DNA from: Candidatus Eiseniibacteriota bacterium
Lineage (GTDB): Bacteria; Arandabacterota; Arandabacteria; JAGLYR01
DNA length: 10,082 nt
Direction: 5' to 3'
Assembly: GCA_023132135.1 (NCBI GenBank)
Contig: JAGLYR010000209.1
Location: 1-10,082 of the forward strand
The notes beneath the pieces are model-generated. The model ran no database searches, had not been told where the DNA came from, and saw only the letters and a program-made list of their open reading frames with translations. Below, piece by piece: positions 2,663 to 10,082 of this stretch. Made by a program: the position numbers and the translations under genes. The stretch's first letter is position 1. Each line of letters opens with the position of its first letter.

Positions 2663-5626
2663 TCAGGCAGACCTGAGAATACCATTCGAGCCCGTCGGCG
2701 GCAAGGGCAAGTGAGACTGGACCCTCGCACTGAACCTGCCCGGTGCATGATCCCCCCGGGTGTACCGGACTCTCCGCGAGAGCATGTTGGGCTGGATTGT
2801 GCTTCCGCCCGTCGAGAGCGCGCCCAGCCGCTTCATCTCGTTCTCCAGCTCGCGGACGTTCCCGGGCCAGGGGTAGCTTGCCAGAACCTCCAAAGCGTCC
2901 CCTGATAGCCGTCCGGCAACCTTCCCCTCTCGGGCGAAGGAGCGCGCCAGGAAATCGTTCGCGAGAAGGGGAATGTCTTCCATGCGTTCGCGCAACGCCG
3001 GGAGCTGAACATCGACGACATTCAGCCGGTAGAAGAGATCCTCCCGGAATCTCCCCCGCTCCACTTCTTCGTCCAACCTTCGGTGTGTCGCCGAGACAAC
3101 ACGGACATCGACCCGGCCCTCTTCCACAGCTCCGAGGCGCCGGATTTCCCCCGTCTCAAGGAGCCGGAGGAGCTTCACCTGAGTCGCGGCATCCACCTCC
3201 GCAACCTCATCCAGGAAGAAGGTCCCTCCATCGGCGGATTCAAAAAGCCCGGTTTTGTCTCCCACGGCTCCGGTAAAGGCCCCGCTCACGTAGCCGAACA
3301 GCTCGCTCTCCAGCAGATCCCTCGGGATCGCGGCGCAGTTCTGCGCGACGAAGGCCTTGGAGTGGCGGTTTCCCAGCTCATGCAGCGCTCGGGCAACCAG
3401 CTCCTTGCCTGTGCCCGTCTCGCCATGAATGAGAATGGGAACACTCGAGTTGCAGACTCTCCCGATGATGCCCAGCACCCTGGCCAGTTTCGCGCCTCCC
3501 AACATGGAGGGAACGACCTTCACTCCGGAAGGCGTCGCAATCCTGATCCCTCCATTGCCCGATGGCTCTTCCAGCATGGACACGGATTCCAGCACCGGGC
3601 GCGCGGCCGAGATCTTCTCCATCTCCCGTCCACCAAATGGAAACCCCCGTTCGCTGCCCCGGTCCAAGTAGATCAAGCCCTGCAGTGTGCCGTCGGCCAC
3701 CAGGGGAAGAAGGAGAAGGGACCGCACGTTCCGCACCGCCTCGAGCCGGCGAAACCTTGGGTCCGCGGAGACCGATACAGAGAGCACCGGGGCTCCACTT
3801 GCAAGCCACGCGTGTTCCCCCCCCAGTAGTCGCTCGGCCAGCCGCTGGGCCTCGTTCCCGTCCATGTTGATCCGCGCCAGCACGCAGGCATCCGAACCCG
3901 CGCGCCCGGGCCGAACCCACAGGGCGCGGTCGGCGCCAACGTTGGCCGCTATCCCGGCGAGGAGCTCCCCCGGGATCCTCCCCGACAGTTCCCCCAGACA
4001 ATCGGCATCCCAAGGGGTGTGGCATTCACTCGATTGAATCCTCCCGACCAAGAGCGTCTCGATGTCTTCCCGCAGGCTCTGCAGACGGCTCTGAAGCCGG
4101 TTTCGCACACCCTCCGGAGCAGGGTTCATCTCCTCGAGACTGCGGAGGATCGAGAGAGCCCCATCCACACCTCCGTGGCGAACCTTCCAGCGGGCCAAGG
4201 CAATCCGGGCATCCGCCAACCCGCACAGATCACCCAGTTTCTCAAAGATCTCGGAGGCCACGATCAGGCATTCCTGGACCCGGTCCCGACTCTGGGATTC
4301 CATACCGGAATCCGCCATCCACGCGGCAAAGGCCACCAGTGTCCGGGCCAGCAGGTGTTTCATCCCAAGGTCGGACAACCGCTCAATCGCGTGGCTGAAG
4401 CGGGCTCCGGTCCTGTGGTTGCCCTCGCGCGCCCGGAGTTCCGCCCTCAGAACGAGAAACCTGGCCTCTTCGTACCGATCGCCGGTCCGCCGGGCCGTCT
4501 CCAGACCCTGGGTAATGAACTGGAGTGCACGGGCCGGGGATTCGACATGGCTGGCCACCCTTGCCTGGACCCGGCGAATCTCGGCCGTCAGATCCGTCAC
4601 GGTTCCCACTCTGTCGGCCAGCTTCCTGGCCTTCTCCAGTTCCTCTGCAGCTGCCTCCGGATCCCCGGTATCCAGGCAGAGCTCCGTGAGGTACTCGTGG
4701 GCAAGGGCTTGGGTTCTGAGATCGTCACCTGCCTCCGCCAGGGCCAGCGCCCTCGCGTACCGTGTCTCGGCCCTCTCCCAGTTTCCCCGGGCAGCCTCCA
4801 GTCGACCCTGCCCCAGGAGCACGGATGCCTCCGCCGTCGTGTGCTCGCTGCGCCGAGCAACGCGAAATCCCTCACGCCACACTTTCTCTGCCTGTTTCCA
4901 GTCCCCGATTTTGAAGTGAACGATGCCTATGTTGTTCAACCGTTCTGCAAGGGACCGGTCGGGCCCGGCGCGCGCCAACCGGATCGCCTGCTCAAAGCAG
5001 TCGATTGCCCTCCCCCACTCGCAGCGGTTCTTGTGGACGAGCCCCAGGTTGTTGTAGGCCTGCCCCATGCGTTGCCGGTCGCCCGACCTGCGGGCCGCAC
5101 TCAGTACATCTTCGAGAATGCCGCTCGCCTCCTGCCACCGCCCAAGCCGAGCGAAGACGGCCCCGAGGGAAAGTCCAATCCGGAGAGCATCCGTTCCCAC
5201 ACCCCGCTGCGATGCCAGGGCCCTGGCTTTGATAGCGTATTTGTAAGCCCGGCGAACGCGACCGTTCCTGAGGCACAGATCCGCGGCCAGACCCAACGCT
5301 CGCGCCGACAGGCTTCCCTCCGTCCCCTTCCCCAGAAAACCCAGCACCTCTTCAAGCCGTCCAAGCGAATCCCGGTATTGATCCCTCTCATAGAGACAAT
5401 GTGCTTCCTTGACGATCACCCGGGCGCGATCCCTGTCGTGACCGAACGACCCGTCCTGCCTGGCCAGTACAAAATGCACCTCGGCCTGGGCGAGGTCCCC
5501 CCCATCCATCAGCTCATCCCCGATCGCCTCGGCCAGGCGAGCGATCTCGCGTCGGTCTTTCCTCAACTTCGCCCGGTTCAGTTCCCGGAGGCATTGGTCG
5601 CCCCCCTTTGGCGTGCGTGCGGGCAT
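2663..5626 (-). CDS. TPR-GAF-sigma54 activator (AAA+ enhancer-binding protein) lacking a visible HTH
   Basis: 987 aa. Residues ~20-520 are helical repeats of TPR type (for example YNNLGLVHKN at 191-200 and LNNIGIVHFKIGDWKQAEKV at 230-249). Residues ~545-685 resemble a GAF sensor domain, with LLLLPLVADGTLQGLIYLDR near its end. Residues ~700-930 are the sigma54-activating AAA+ ATPase: Walker A GETGTGKE (735-742), the sigma54-contacting loop GAFTGA (782-787), Walker B GTFFLDE (801-807), PALRERMEDIPLL (875-887) and PWPGNVRELENE (919-930). The loop is intact, so it should drive open-complex formation by sigma54 RNA polymerase. The last ~50 residues show no Fis-type helix-turn-helix, which most such activators carry. 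The start is firm: AGGAGGT lies 7 nt before the ATG. It is upstream of and close to larA, which it may control or respond to. The ligand is unknown. Confidence 0.95.
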   Translation of the reverse strand: MPARTPKGGDQCLRELNRAKLRKDRREIARLAEAIGDELMDGGDLAQAEVHFVLARQDGSFGHDRDRARVIVKEAHCLYERDQYRDSLGRLEEVLGFLGKGTEGSLSARALGLAADLCLRNGRVRRAYKYAIKARALASQRGVGTDALRIGLSLGAVFARLGRWQEASGILEDVLSAARRSGDRQRMGQAYNNLGLVHKNRCEWGRAIDCFEQAIRLARAGPDRSLAERLNNIGIVHFKIGDWKQAEKVWREGFRVARRSEHTTAEASVLLGQGRLEAARGNWERAETRYARALALAEAGDDLRTQALAHEYLTELCLDTGDPEAAAEELEKARKLADRVGTVTDLTAEIRRVQARVASHVESPARALQFITQGLETARRTGDRYEEARFLVLRAELRAREGNHRTGARFSHAIERLSDLGMKHLLARTLVAFAAWMADSGMESQSRDRVQECLIVASEIFEKLGDLCGLADARIALARWKVRHGGVDGALSILRSLEEMNPAPEGVRNRLQSRLQSLREDIETLLVGRIQSSECHTPWDADCLGELSGRIPGELLAGIAANVGADRALWVRPGRAGSDACVLARINMDGNEAQRLAERLLGGEHAWLASGAPVLSVSVSADPRFRRLEAVRNVRSLLLLPLVADGTLQGLIYLDRGSERGFPFGGREMEKISAARPVLESVSMLEEPSGNGGIRIATPSGVKVVPSMLGGAKLARVLGIIGRVCNSSVPILIHGETGTGKELVARALHELGNRHSKAFVAQNCAAIPRDLLESELFGYVSGAFTGAVGDKTGLFESADGGTFFLDEVAEVDAATQVKLLRLLETGEIRRLGAVEEGRVDVRVVSATHRRLDEEVERGRFREDLFYRLNVVDVQLPALRERMEDIPLLANDFLARSFAREGKVAGRLSGDALEVLASYPWPGNVRELENEMKRLGALSTGGSTIQPNMLSRRVRYTRGDHAPGRFSARVQSHLPLPPTGSNGILRSA

Positions 5627-6460: not shown

Positions 6461-7402
6461 CTACATCTCGGACGCGACAGACAGCCGGTGGACGGTACCC
6501 AGCGCGCCATAGGGGCTAACTCCATAGTCGACGCGCCAGTCCTCCCACTCTATTCCCAGGCCTCCGCAGAATGCCGAGAGCATCCCCCACCCATCTCCCT
6601 GCCTCCCCATGTCCCAACGCTCCCCGTCCATTCCGGCTCTCAGCCAGAGCGAGCGACCCAAGAGCACCTCAAATCCCGAGGCGAGCCGGACTCCCTCGCC
6701 CCCACCGAAGGCCACATCAACGGCCAATCGCCCAAGACCCGATGGAGCCCGGTAGCCGATTCCGATCCGGCCTTCCACCGGAAGAGACACCTCTTCACTC
6801 AGGTACGACGAGCCACTCAGCTGGAAATTCCGGAGCGAGGCGCCCAGAGTCATGTTCTCCAGAGGAAGATCCAGAAGAAAACCGGCATCGATCCCCACGG
6901 CCATCGCGCTGTACGAGTCGATGGCCCCCGAGATGTAGGACGCGCTCACACCCAGTCGCAAATCCGGAGTCAGCGGGTACGCCGCCCCGAAGGTCATGGC
7001 CACATCGGAGGCAGAAAAGGACTCGCTGTGGTAGCCCACAGGTTCAGTCACAGACGTGCGAAACATGGAACCATAGGACAGGTAGCGAAGTCCCACACCC
7101 AGACCCCAGCCCCGGGGGGCCGCCCTTCCCAGAACAACCTGACCGGCCTGGACTCCCTGCGGATAGTGCATGTATGCGGCCAACGCGTGGGAATCCTGAA
7201 TGAGGCAGAGTCCGGCCGGATTCCACCCAAGACCAACGGCCCCGTCCGAAAGAGCGACATAGGCCCCTCCCATAGCTGCCGGCCGCGGCGCGATTCCAAC
7301 GCGCAGGAACTCGAAGTTCCGCGTCCCGGCCGCATGAGCCGCCGCAGGCAGGAGCCAACAGAGAGCCAAGACTCCAAGATGCTTCCAACTGACGAAATGC
7401 AT
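6461..7402 (-). CDS. PorV/PorQ-family outer-membrane beta-barrel protein
   Basis: 313 aa from the chosen ATG. A signal peptide (MHFVSWKHLGVLALCWLL, likely cleaved after AAHA at residue 24) is followed by the family signature at residues 40-65: RPAAMGGAYVALSDG, then GWNPAGL. The rest alternates short amphipathic strands (for example GWGLGVGLRYLSYG, LRLGVSASYISG, MTLGASLRNFQLSG) and ends on a strand, as in FadL-like barrels of the PorV/PorQ/UPF0164 group. PorV serves type IX secretion in Bacteroidetes, but many homologues have no assigned role. No type IX component is nearby, so the function here is open. The frame extends 19 codons upstream, but the start at 7402 is chosen because it begins the signal peptide and lies just after the promoter at 7422-7450. 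GAGGG lies 8 nt before it. Confidence 0.85.
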   Translation of the reverse strand: MHFVSWKHLGVLALCWLLPAAAHAAGTRNFEFLRVGIAPRPAAMGGAYVALSDGAVGLGWNPAGLCLIQDSHALAAYMHYPQGVQAGQVVLGRAAPRGWGLGVGLRYLSYGSMFRTSVTEPVGYHSESFSASDVAMTFGAAYPLTPDLRLGVSASYISGAIDSYSAMAVGIDAGFLLDLPLENMTLGASLRNFQLSGSSYLSEEVSLPVEGRIGIGYRAPSGLGRLAVDVAFGGGEGVRLASGFEVLLGRSLWLRAGMDGERWDMGRQGDGWGMLSAFCGGLGIEWEDWRVDYGVSPYGALGTVHRLSVASEM

Positions 7403-7421
7403 GAGTGAATCCCTCACACCT

Positions 7422-7450
7422 ATCCTATGCGCAGTACTGCCATCTGTCAA
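7422..7450 (-). promoter_or_regulatory. Sigma70-type promoter of the PorV-like gene
   Basis: TTGACA (7445-7450, minus strand), a 17-nt spacer and TAGGAT (7422-7427). The spacer contains the perfect 10-bp palindrome GCAGTACTGC (7431-7440), and the -35 box overlaps TGTCA-AC-TGACA (7445-7456). The leader to the ATG at 7402 would be only about 12 nt. Confidence 0.55.
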
Positions 7451-7471
7451 CTGACACAAACCAATGCTGAG

Positions 7472-7558
7472 GGAAAGGACATGAGAAGCAGTGCTTCGTG
7501 CCCCGTGCTTCGTGCCCCGTGCTACGTGCTCCGTGCAAGGACAGGAGCATTGGAGGGG
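7472..7558 (+). repeat. Composite heptamer array, region 2
   Basis: A linker GGAAAGGACATGAGAAGCA (7472-7490) is followed by seven uninterrupted 7-bp units from 7491 to 7539: GTGCTTC, GTGCCCC, GTGCTTC, GTGCCCC, GTGCTAC, GTGCTCC, GTGCAAG. A second linker-like segment follows (7540-7558, core GGAGCATTGG). The last unit is again GTGCAAG. The array lies between the FliG-N-like gene and the PorV-like promoter. Confidence 0.88.
7519..7552. repeat. 34-bp dispersed repeat, copy 2
   Basis: The reverse complement matches 86-119 at 31 of 34 positions. In both places a GGCTT-containing segment and a CCCGCG palindrome lie next to it on the same side, so the whole composite is repeated. Confidence 0.75.
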
Positions 7559-7581
7559 TTCAAGCCCTCTCGCGCCTGTCG

Positions 7582-7599
7582 TTCCCGCGTGCGCGGGAA
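7582..7599. repeat. Palindromic GTCATTCC-type repeat, copy 2
   Basis: TTCCCGCG / CGCGGGAA arms of 8 bp around TG, with ATGACA running off the right arm. It has the same core as 30-49. Just before it, GAGGG (7553-7557) can pair with CCCTC (7565-7569), which may give a weak hairpin after the FliG-N-like gene. Confidence 0.7.
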
Positions 7600-7648
7600 T
7601 GACAATCGGTTTCGCGCTCTCGCCTCTCGGATTCTCGCCCCCTCGCGC

Positions 7649-7894
7649 TTACCGCACCACAGCGGAGACCCGGGCGCGGAATGCACTCAGAATCCGGCGA
7701 CGGGCGCCGGTGGACACGCGTGGGAGGAGAGCCGCTTCGAGGTACAGGGCGCCGATCTGTTCCCGACTGAGGTGGGAACAGATGCGCTGTGCTGTTCGGG
7801 GATCGACGGTGGAAAGGAGAATTGCGGCTCGCTGTTGCGCAGTCAGGGATTCGATCTCGTGGTGTATCTCGAGCTCTTCGATGGCATTTGTCAT
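7649..7894 (-). CDS. Lone FliG N-terminal-domain-like protein (81 aa)
   Basis: Residues 17-75 align without gaps, by eye, to the N-terminal domain of the flagellar motor switch protein FliG. RAAILL (22-27), DP (31-32), HLS (41-43), LEAALLPRV (52-60) and ILSAF (68-72) fall where FliG has KAAVLL, GP, HLD, VEIANIGRV and VLEEF. That domain binds the cytoplasmic tail of FliF. The middle and C-terminal FliG domains that make the torque ring are absent, and the frame closes normally, so this is a small protein rather than a visible fragment. The MgtE N-terminal domain has a related fold and is the main alternative. The ATG lies 1 bp after the stop of the upstream gene, and GAGGAGG is 15 nt before it, so translation is probably coupled. 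Confidence 0.75.
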   Translation of the reverse strand: MTNAIEELEIHHEIESLTAQQRAAILLSTVDPRTAQRICSHLSREQIGALYLEAALLPRVSTGARRRILSAFRARVSAVVR

Positions 7895-7895
7895 T

Positions 7896-8300
7896 TCAGG
7901 TGTTCGATTCCTCCTCGAGCCAGTCCTTGAGGACTTCCTTCACGGCGGTGATGTCCTCCTGTGCGAGAGTCTCGATGTCCCGTCGAGCCGATTCCGCCGC
8001 CGCCATCTCCAGACTCGCCATGCCTTCGCAGCTCGTCACCAACCGGCTCCGCCTTCTGGCCACGGCATAGGCAACGGTGCTTAACACTGCGCCCGTCACC
8101 AGAACCACCATCCCTCTCCACAACGCTTCCGCGGGTGCAACCGACATTGATCCAACCCTGTCGGTGACCTCCGCGTTATCCGTTTGAGATGCATGCGCCT
8201 CTTCGGATTCCCCAATTGCCCAGGCGCGTCCAGGATCTGCCATCCCGCAGAGCAATAGCACAACCAGCAACCCACAGCATGCCATGAGGAACTTCAGCAT
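7896..8300 (-). CDS. Mini-FliF-like two-segment membrane protein (134 aa)
   Basis: A hydrophobic N-terminal segment (residues 4-20, possibly a cleaved signal, AWA at 26-28) is followed by about 30 polar residues and a second membrane segment at 60-81 (LWRGMVVLVTGAVLSTVAYAVA). Then come RRRSR and an acidic cytoplasmic tail. The tail at 108-131 (DIETLAQEDITAVKEVLKDW, then LEEE) resembles the extreme C-terminus of FliF, which binds the FliG N-terminal domain. The next gene is FliG-N-like, which supports this reading. FliF itself is over 500 aa with ring-building periplasmic domains between its two membrane segments, and here they are missing. The start at 8300 is chosen for its membrane segment and GGAAGG 6 nt upstream. 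The frame is open to 8393, but that part lacks a signal. FliO-like or unrelated small membrane protein are alternatives. Confidence 0.7.
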   Translation of the reverse strand: MLKFLMACCGLLVVLLLCGMADPGRAWAIGESEEAHASQTDNAEVTDRVGSMSVAPAEALWRGMVVLVTGAVLSTVAYAVARRRSRLVTSCEGMASLEMAAAESARRDIETLAQEDITAVKEVLKDWLEEESNT

Positions 8301-8339
8301 GTCCGGCCTTCCGCGAAGATTGGACTGCGGGGACACGAT

Positions 8340-8389
8340 CCCGATTTCGCAGGCGCTCGGCGCCGTCGGCGGCTCCGCCCGAAATCGGG
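8340..8389. other. Long stem-loop upstream of the mini-FliF gene
   Basis: CCCGATTTCG (8340-8349) and CGAAATCGGG (8380-8389) form a perfect 10-bp stem. GGCG (8352-8355) and CGCC (8376-8379) extend it after a 2-nt bulge. No T run follows on either strand, so it is not an obvious terminator. It would lie about 40 nt before the mini-FliF start in a minus-strand transcript. Confidence 0.6.
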
Positions 8390-8462
8390 TCATGTCCTCG
8401 ACTCACCCGTCCTACTTCAGGATTCGGAATTCTGAGGGGGGAACTCGAGTGGAATCTGTTCG

Positions 8463-8556
8463 GAGAAGGGCATCAAGAGCAGTCCGTAGTGCGTAGTCCG
8501 TAGTGCGTAGTCCAAGGAAAAAGGCATTGAAAGCAGTGCTTCGTGCCCCGTGCTAC
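8463..8556 (+). repeat. Composite heptamer array, region 3 (3' end of pcrA)
   Basis: Linker GAGAAGGGCATCAAGAGCA (8463-8481), then five 7-bp units (8482-8516: GTCCGTA, GTGCGTA, GTCCGTA, GTGCGTA, GTCCAAG), linker GAAAAAGGCATTGAAAGCA (8517-8535), then three units (8536-8556: GTGCTTC, GTGCCCC, GTGCTAC). The last unit contains the pcrA stop codon on the other strand. The 24 bp at 8531-8554 are identical to 7486-7509. Confidence 0.88.
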
Positions 8557-10082
8557 TCCACCTGAAGATGCCCGAACTGCACCACGATGGTCCTTCGGGA
8601 TCCGTCATCAAACAGAATTGTCACCTTCATCGCCTCGCCGGAGCCTACGACGCTGATCACTTTCCCGGAGCCGAAATTCGGATGCCGGACACGCGAACCT
8701 GCCGAGAGGTCAACATCATCCGGGTAGTCGTAGTCGGGATGCACGTCCTTTTCACTTTCGTACTCCTCGGTTGCCATCGTCGAGACGGCCCCGACCTCAT
8801 GAACGAGCTCGCTCGGAATGTCGAAGACAAAGCGCGAGATCTCGGTGTATTCACTCTCGTAGTAACGTCTCCTGCGGTCAGCTATCGTGATATGAACGTT
8901 CCGCAGCGCCCGCGTCAGCCCCACGTAGAAGAGCCTTCTCTCCTCCTCAAGTTCAGTCTCATCATTCATCGATGAAGCGTGCGGCAGCAATCCCTCTTCA
9001 AGGCCGGTGATGAACACCACCGGGAATTCCAACCCCTTTGCGGCGTGGAGTGTCAGCAATTTGACCCCTCCTTGCGACGTCGAATTCAGGCTGTCGACAT
9101 CGCTCACCAGAGCGACACTCTCCAACATCGCACCCAGCCCATCCCGCCAGGGGATCCCGTTGTACTCCACGGCAATGCTTCTCAGCTGGAGCACATTCTC
9201 CCAGCGCTCCTCGGCCTTCTCGAACGATTTCTCCAACCACTCGCCGTAGCCCACAGCCTCAAGAAGAAGATCCATCAGATCGGCTACAGAAGCGCTTGCA
9301 TCCGTGCGCATGAGACTGTTTGCAAGCTCATGGAATGCGGCCAGTGCTTTCGCGCTACGGGTGTCTACGTCCACCCCCGCGGCGCCGTCCCCGGATCCCC
9401 CGCCCTCAACAATCATCCGTAGCGCATCCCACAATCCCACGCCGCGTTCTCCGGCAACATCCCGCAGTGTGCCCCACGCCTTCAGACCGATTCCGCGGGG
9501 GGGAATATTGATGATCCGTTCCAGGGAAACCTCATCACGAGGGTTGTGGAGCACCCGAAGAAGACCGAGTACATCACGGACCTCCCGCCGTTCGTAGAAC
9601 CGCGTGGCCCGAACAAGCTGGTAGGGAATCTGCTCCAGTACCAGCACTTCCTCGATGGAACGGGACTGCGCGTTGGTCCGGTACATCACCGCAATGTCGC
9701 CGTAGGAACCGCCCTTCTGGACATGTTTCTCGATCTCCTGAGCAACGTAGACTGCCTCCGCCGTCTCGTCGGTTGCATCGAACCGGAAGATCTTCGGACC
9801 ATCTCCCGCGTCGGTCCAGAGCTTCTTGGGTGTGCGGTTGACGTTGCGATTGATCACAGCCCCTGCCGCATCCAGAATCGTCTGCGTCGAGCGGTAGTTG
9901 CGCTCAAGAATGAACATCTGGGTGCCCGGGAAATCGCTTCGGAACGAAGCGACATTGCGGTAGTTCGCCCCGCGCCACCCGTAGATGCTCTGGTCTTCAT
10001 CGCCAACCGCGAACACGTTATGCGGAGCGTCTTCCACGCCGGCCGAAGCCAGCAGTTTGACCAACGCATACTGCGTGAGATT
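8553..10082 (-). CDS. pcrA: PcrA/UvrD-type superfamily 1A DNA helicase, C-terminal part (start lies beyond the right edge)
   Basis: 509 codons are visible. The frame is open to the last base, where NLTQYALVKLL matches the residues just after the Walker B motif (DEYQDTN), so the N-terminal third is outside the window. Counting the first complete codon as 1, motif III is GDEDQSIYGWRGA (27-39), motif IV LERNYRS (59-65), motif V TLHAAKGLEF (344-353) and motif VI EERRLFYVGLTRA (380-392). The C-terminal ~45 residues (SRVRHPNFGSGKVISV, then ILFDDGSRR) form the Tudor-like domain by which PcrA/UvrD binds RNA polymerase. It unwinds DNA 3' to 5' in mismatch and excision repair and at stalled polymerases. 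The TAG stop lies in the last heptamer of the repeat array. UvrD and PcrA cannot be separated from this part alone. Confidence 0.95.
   Translation of the reverse strand, partial: NLTQYALVKLLASAGVEDAPHNVFAVGDEDQSIYGWRGANYRNVASFRSDFPGTQMFILERNYRSTQTILDAAGAVINRNVNRTPKKLWTDAGDGPKIFRFDATDETAEAVYVAQEIEKHVQKGGSYGDIAVMYRTNAQSRSIEEVLVLEQIPYQLVRATRFYERREVRDVLGLLRVLHNPRDEVSLERIINIPPRGIGLKAWGTLRDVAGERGVGLWDALRMIVEGGGSGDGAAGVDVDTRSAKALAAFHELANSLMRTDASASVADLMDLLLEAVGYGEWLEKSFEKAEERWENVLQLRSIAVEYNGIPWRDGLGAMLESVALVSDVDSLNSTSQGGVKLLTLHAAKGLEFPVVFITGLEEGLLPHASSMNDETELEEERRLFYVGLTRALRNVHITIADRRRRYYESEYTEISRFVFDIPSELVHEVGAVSTMATEEYESEKDVHPDYDYPDDVDLSAGSRVRHPNFGSGKVISVVGSGEAMKVTILFDDGSRRTIVVQFGHLQVE

Follow-up and report, generated by a model that had tools for sequence, protein, structure and literature searches.

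Two small, coupled genes on the minus strand of a contig from Candidatus Eiseniibacteriota appear, on sequence grounds, to be best explained as encoding the joint between the MS ring and the C ring of the flagellum and nothing else. The upstream gene, P0002 (window 7896 to 8300, minus strand), encodes a 134-amino-acid membrane protein with a FliF-like C-terminal tail, and the downstream gene, P0001 (7649 to 7894, minus strand), encodes an 81-amino-acid, stand-alone FliG D1. The window analyzed is the entire contig of 10,082 bases, and all statements about the neighborhood of the pair cover that contig alone. To our knowledge, FliG_N and the FliF tail have been described only as the ends of large ring proteins, and we found neither a stand-alone FliG_N nor a membrane protein carrying a FliF tail in the literature searched. 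Our tentative reading is that the pair forms a membrane-anchored unit in which the FliF-like tail and FliG D1 would co-fold, and that this unit may act as an accessory at the flagellar rotor. As a naturally occurring minimal pair, it would establish that the FliF-FliG joint can exist as a free-standing module and would offer a ready means of examining the linking, capping, and counting of FliG subunits in the C ring. An effect on the flagellum would make the pair an accessory factor of a new kind, and a nonflagellar role would make it a rare case of a rotor part being reused.

An earlier, sequence-only reading of this DNA had described two coupled small genes, and ORF calling agrees with it. 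A single base separates the TGA of P0002 from the ATG of P0001, and we therefore treat the two genes as coupled. Both frames look intact, and their GC contents at the three codon positions (0.62/0.49/0.71 for P0002 and 0.70/0.49/0.68 for P0001) resemble those of the window's other genes. A Shine-Dalgarno-like GGAAGG (8307 to 8312, minus strand) lies six bases 5′ of the P0002 ATG. On the same strand, the pair is preceded by a gene for a UvrD-type helicase and followed by one for a PorV/PorQ-family protein (Pfam, NCBIfam); Pfam further assigns a sigma-54 regulator, LarA, and an M28 peptidase in the window. Pfam and NCBIfam searches of the 10,082-base window detected no flagellar genes near the pair, and the earlier statement to this effect is right for the window.

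Judged by its sequence, P0001 is a true homologue of the FliG N terminus, consisting of the FliF-binding part (D1) without the D2 hairpin. It matches Pfam FliG_N (PF14842) with 37.9 bits (cutoff, 25; E = 3e-9) and scores 38.4 bits in a whole-genome FliG_N search. An attempt to refute this assignment through a better-matching family failed, FliG_N being the only Pfam family above its cutoff: FliG_M reaches just 14.7 bits, over the residues that FliG_N also matches, and the NCBIfam equivalog TIGR00207 reaches 24.8 bits, below its cutoff of 226.7. A FliO-like or MgtE_N-like identity within the pair had no Pfam support. Residues 17 to 78 of P0001 (window 7661 to 7846, minus strand) correspond to FliG_N profile positions 2 to 63 of 104, so that the protein covers the first ~60 positions rather than the whole domain; it has no counterpart of GG.(E)YA, a stretch conserved in FliG_N. 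In Salmonella, by cryo-EM, FliG D1 comprises residues 1 to 67 and is bound by the FliF tail, while D2, an armadillo hairpin formed by residues 73 to 99, completes the D1 of the next subunit (PMC11087270). The earlier description of P0001 as a FliG N-terminal domain only is supported by the FliG_N match and by the absence of any Pfam match to FliG_C, but it has to be narrowed to D1, a correction that matters because it is through D2 that FliG subunits join into a ring.

The closest PDB sequence to P0001 is the FliG_N of the Thermotoga FliF-FliG complex (5TDY chain B; E = 2e-4). We predicted the structures of P0001 and P0002 as single chains from single-sequence input. The P0001 model contains four helices (mean pLDDT, 80), and Foldseek ranks 5TDY chains D and B first for it, with a best E value of only 0.13 and a probability of 0.97; its VIA-align Z score against 5TDY is 4.7, not above that of unrelated helical proteins. 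Because the Z score is not distinctive and the best Foldseek E value is 0.13, the fold comparison adds little to what the profile matches suggest.

P0002 contains two hydrophobic segments by hydropathy, at residues 1 to 24 and 59 to 82, joined by a short linker. The first, MLKFLMACCGLLVVLLLCG, is signal-peptide-like over residues 1 to 28 (window 8217 to 8300, minus strand; hydropathy up to 2.43), with AWA before and IG after the putative cleavage site, and the second includes a predicted transmembrane segment at residues 62 to 82 (8055 to 8117, minus strand; hydropathy 1.65 to 1.98). The first segment may be a signal peptide ending in AWA, whose cleavage we infer, or a first transmembrane helix. 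Since it resembles a signal peptide, a single membrane pass is possible, and the earlier claim of two membrane segments holds for the hydrophobic stretches but perhaps not for the number of passes. Arginines follow the transmembrane segment, and by the positive-inside rule the tail should therefore face the cytoplasm. AlphaFold2 predicts helices at residues 2 to 20 and 23 to 29 and a long helix from residue 56 to residue 133 that runs to the end of the protein (mean pLDDT, 73.5).

The tail itself (residues 98 to 132, ending in RDIETLAQEDITAVKEVLKDWLEEES; window 7905 to 8009, minus strand) gives a weak but specific match to the FliF C terminus. It scores 8.4 bits with a profile of 33 FliF tails, taken from this genome and others, and up to about 10.0 bits across the FliF-tail profiles used, in the correct C-terminal register, compared with mostly 15 to 43 bits for genuine FliF tails that were each omitted from the profile. 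It keeps the Trp-Leu of typical FliFs and deviates from the consensus at two positions (Pro to Ile and a small residue to Lys). When we ranked 1,617 distinct ORF tails from all DNA examined, 44 FliF tails (many of them within the profile) led and P0002 came next at 10.0 bits; the other two non-FliF tails above 7 bits matched partially and in the wrong register, which leaves P0002 as the sole non-FliF tail with at least 7 bits in the right C-terminal register. A 490-column profile made from the C-terminal ~490 residues of 18 FliFs found one significant match in the six frames of window 7300 to 8560, at this tail (8072 to 7908) (columns 435 to 489; i-E = 5.5e-5).

These scores are low, 17 of 20,000 shuffled P0002 tails reach them, and P0002 has no match to FliF in Pfam, NCBIfam, or the PDB, all of which would fit a FliG-derived P0001 next to a protein whose tail is FliF-like by chance and whose role is unrelated. 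We consider such a coincidence improbable: the match ends at the C terminus in just 2 of the 20,000 shuffles, P0002 is the top non-FliF tail of 1,617, and it directly precedes the FliG-D1 gene. Weak by itself, the match becomes credible because the register is correct and the gene lies in front of the one for FliG D1, in keeping with the FliF-like tail first ascribed to P0002.

Beyond these two binding halves, the ring and the FliG middle and C-terminal domains are absent, as had been claimed. Pfam finds neither of the periplasmic ring domains (YscJ_FliF and YscJ_FliF_C) in P0002, nor FliO (PF04347), and profile searches of the six frames of 7300 to 8560 traced no other FliF or FliG domains around the pair; a whole-FliG profile matches P0001 only (i-E = 1.3e-11). 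The FliG match does run a few codons past the P0001 stop, to window 7634. Such an overrun, along with the preserved fliF-fliG order, the single occurrence among the genomes searched, and the interspersed repeats on both flanks, could mean that the pair is what is left of a second or acquired fliF-fliG in decay, from which the FliF ring domains and the FliG middle and C-terminal domains have been lost. A remnant of this kind seems less likely to us than an accessory, given that both reading frames are intact, coupled, and coding-like in their GC at the codon positions, that P0002 begins with a signal-peptide-like segment preceded by a Shine-Dalgarno-like sequence, and that the missing domains have left no trace in the six frames. 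It would also require two clean, separate losses, each leaving the exact binding half.

The full fliF and fliG that the sequence-only reading had suggested looking for are both present in this genome, in a flagellar operon on a separate contig (C79). Pfam identifies there a FliF with YscJ_FliF and YscJ_FliF_C, a FliG with all three domains, a rod protein, FliH, FliI, FlgE, two FliMN_C proteins, and FliO. A target for a rotor accessory therefore exists. P0001 gives no BLASTP alignment with the native FliG and scores 8.9 bits with it versus 29.6 bits with the best distant FliG; it thus resembles the FliGs of other families more closely than the one in its own genome, and a recent copy of the native gene is disfavored. 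A second full flagellar FliG was also rejected, the above-cutoff FliG_N matches in the genome being the C79 FliG (in two stretches) and P0001 only. The tail of the native FliF (L001:16-1470) lacks the common Trp and ends in RNKPEESATLIRNMIAESD; this Trp is missing in the class relatives G001 and G005 as well. A sigma-54-like site, TGGCCTGGAACTTGCA, lies 72 bases 5′ of the first rod gene (L126:4731, contig C79; score, 13.0), and none was found upstream of P0002, where the best candidate scores 8.5 of 14.5.

FliG_N matches occur in 116 of 290 genomes sampled across the domain, and P0001 was the only short, stand-alone FliG_N among the matches listed for that set and in nine genomes that were rechecked. 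With P0001 as the query, 53 other genomes of 386 gave matches, all in open frames of 219 to 378 amino acids, and no second short, stand-alone case appeared in this set; the marginal one is a 223-amino-acid frame with a stop inside the match. P0002 matches in the 386 genomes were weak and unconvincing. The class relatives G001 and G005, which are flagellated and encode full FliG, lack the pair. At the uvrD loci of six relatives there was no convincing FliG_N-like or FliF-tail-like ORF nearby, and the PorV neighbors in class relatives, members of a multicopy family, revealed no synteny. No relative of P0001 turned up in 85,000 species genomes, and viral contigs likewise yielded nothing, both scans being sensitive to close relatives only; searches of phages and plasmids returned no match; we rejected a phage or plasmid origin on the strength of these scans. 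The proposed search for the same gene pair elsewhere thus produced no second case in the genomes searched, and the stand-alone pair is rare among them, which does not in itself prove it unique.

The location of the pair also bears on whether it has anything to do with rotation. Both binding partners are encoded together and away from flagellar genes, P0001 has diverged from the native FliG, and the P0002 tail has retained the Trp-Leu seen in typical FliFs, unlike the tail of the native FliF, whose ending is given above. These features would suit a self-contained, nonflagellar membrane complex in which P0002 and P0001 have no partners but each other and the flagellar ring joint is reused for another purpose, as a module for docking or scaffolding. 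We give this possibility a minor share of our confidence, since no flagella-less genome carrying the pair was found among the genomes searched (including the sets of 290 and 386) and the unit has no third protein as an effector. The sequence-only reading had offered three alternatives, namely, a remnant, an assembly adaptor competing with the real FliF and FliG, and a separate complex; a recent copy of the native FliG is disfavored, and of the three we lean tentatively toward an accessory, with the separate complex and the remnant as its main, equally weighted rivals.

The FliF tail and the FliG N-domain are known to co-fold (PMC7355467, PMC11087270). Set beside the structures of this joint (5TDY and 5WUJ; Salmonella C ring, 8UMD/8UMX), P0001 corresponds to the portion of FliG_N that binds FliF, the end of P0002 aligns with the FliF tail, and the gene order fliF-fliG is shared. 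The pair differs in lacking the FliF ring-building domains and FliG D2, middle, and C-terminal domains, and in having each half encoded as a small protein of its own. Under the accessory reading, P0002 would be anchored in the inner membrane with its helical tail reaching the cytoplasm, a simple membrane anchor would stand in for the ring part of FliF, and P0001 would co-fold with the tail as FliG D1 does with FliF. Because P0001 lacks D2 and P0002 lacks ring-building domains, the unit should be unable to build a rotor or to continue a FliG chain. In the FliG ring, D2 completes the D1 of the next subunit; a D1-only unit could therefore take a D2 hairpin from the native FliG but never give one. 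A unit that accepts without donating would most plausibly be an accessory at the cell's own flagellar rotor, perhaps a cap, spacer, or brake that is tethered to the membrane where the MS and C rings meet and that would limit, seed, or tune the assembly of FliG. Sequence support is strong for the FliG half and weak for the FliF half, and co-folding, topology, and action on the flagellum are what we infer.

In favor of an accessory role we count the position of the FliF-like tail, exactly C-terminal in the gene directly upstream and in native fliF-fliG order; the end of P0001 right after D1, with intact, coupled frames of normal codon-position GC; and a FliG_N score above the curated cutoff with 5TDY as the nearest structure. 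Against it we count that the pair is neither inside nor close to the flagellar operon, that P0002 lacks the sigma-54-like site which that operon has, that P0001 is distant from the native FliG and the P0002 tail deviates at two consensus positions, and that the flagellated relatives G001 and G005 do without the pair.

Small membrane proteins that act at this junction provide precedents and count on the favorable side. FlgV of Campylobacterota has 104 to 127 amino acids and two membrane helices, its C-terminal part lies in the cytoplasm, and it acts at the MS/C-ring junction near FliF_C and FliG_N (PMC10655999). It resembles P0002 in its small size, in having two hydrophobic segments, and in a C-terminal part that in P0002 is predicted to be cytoplasmic. 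The FlgV gene, however, lies between flhG and fliA, whereas the P0002-P0001 pair lies between UvrD and PorV/PorQ-family genes; the GFFxG of the first FlgV membrane helix is missing from the first segment of P0002; and a FliG-like partner gene is not reported for FlgV, whereas P0002 adjoins P0001. SwrB of Bacillus subtilis is, in the sections of PMC4526659 drawn on here, a small membrane protein through which, by way of FliF/FliG, maturation of the basal body is promoted; those sections describe a single pass and mention neither a FliF-like tail nor a FliG-D1 partner. In Salmonella, FliF-FliG fusion and deletion-fusion mutants show that the joint tolerates alteration or fusion, and partial loss of FliG_N alters ring size and rotation bias (reviewed in PMC7355467). 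Unlike the pair, the Salmonella fusions are laboratory constructs in which the remainder of FliF and FliG is retained.

Several further elements were seen in the window. A TPR-GAF-sigma54-AAA regulator is encoded at 2663 to 5626 (minus strand), and its Pfam list contains no DNA-binding HTH domain. A long hairpin with an ~18-bp stem lies between uvrD and P0002 (8326 to 8398; RNA folding z-score, −2.9) and matched no Rfam family; it may be a terminator, a 5′ leader, or a repeat. Just 3′ of P0001 is a palindrome, GTCGTTCCCGCGTGCGCGGGAATGAC (7578 to 7603), without a T run, and no terminator-like site was called there. An interspersed repeat, AGCAGTGCTTCGTGCCCCGTGCT, is found at 7487 to 7509 and 8532 to 8554 on the plus strand and at 115 to 137 on the minus strand, and its two exact direct copies (the first two) bracket the P0002-P0001 pair. 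We do not take them as the sign of a mobile unit, as the family is interspersed genome-wide, with 22 copies at up to three mismatches, several of them at contig ends.
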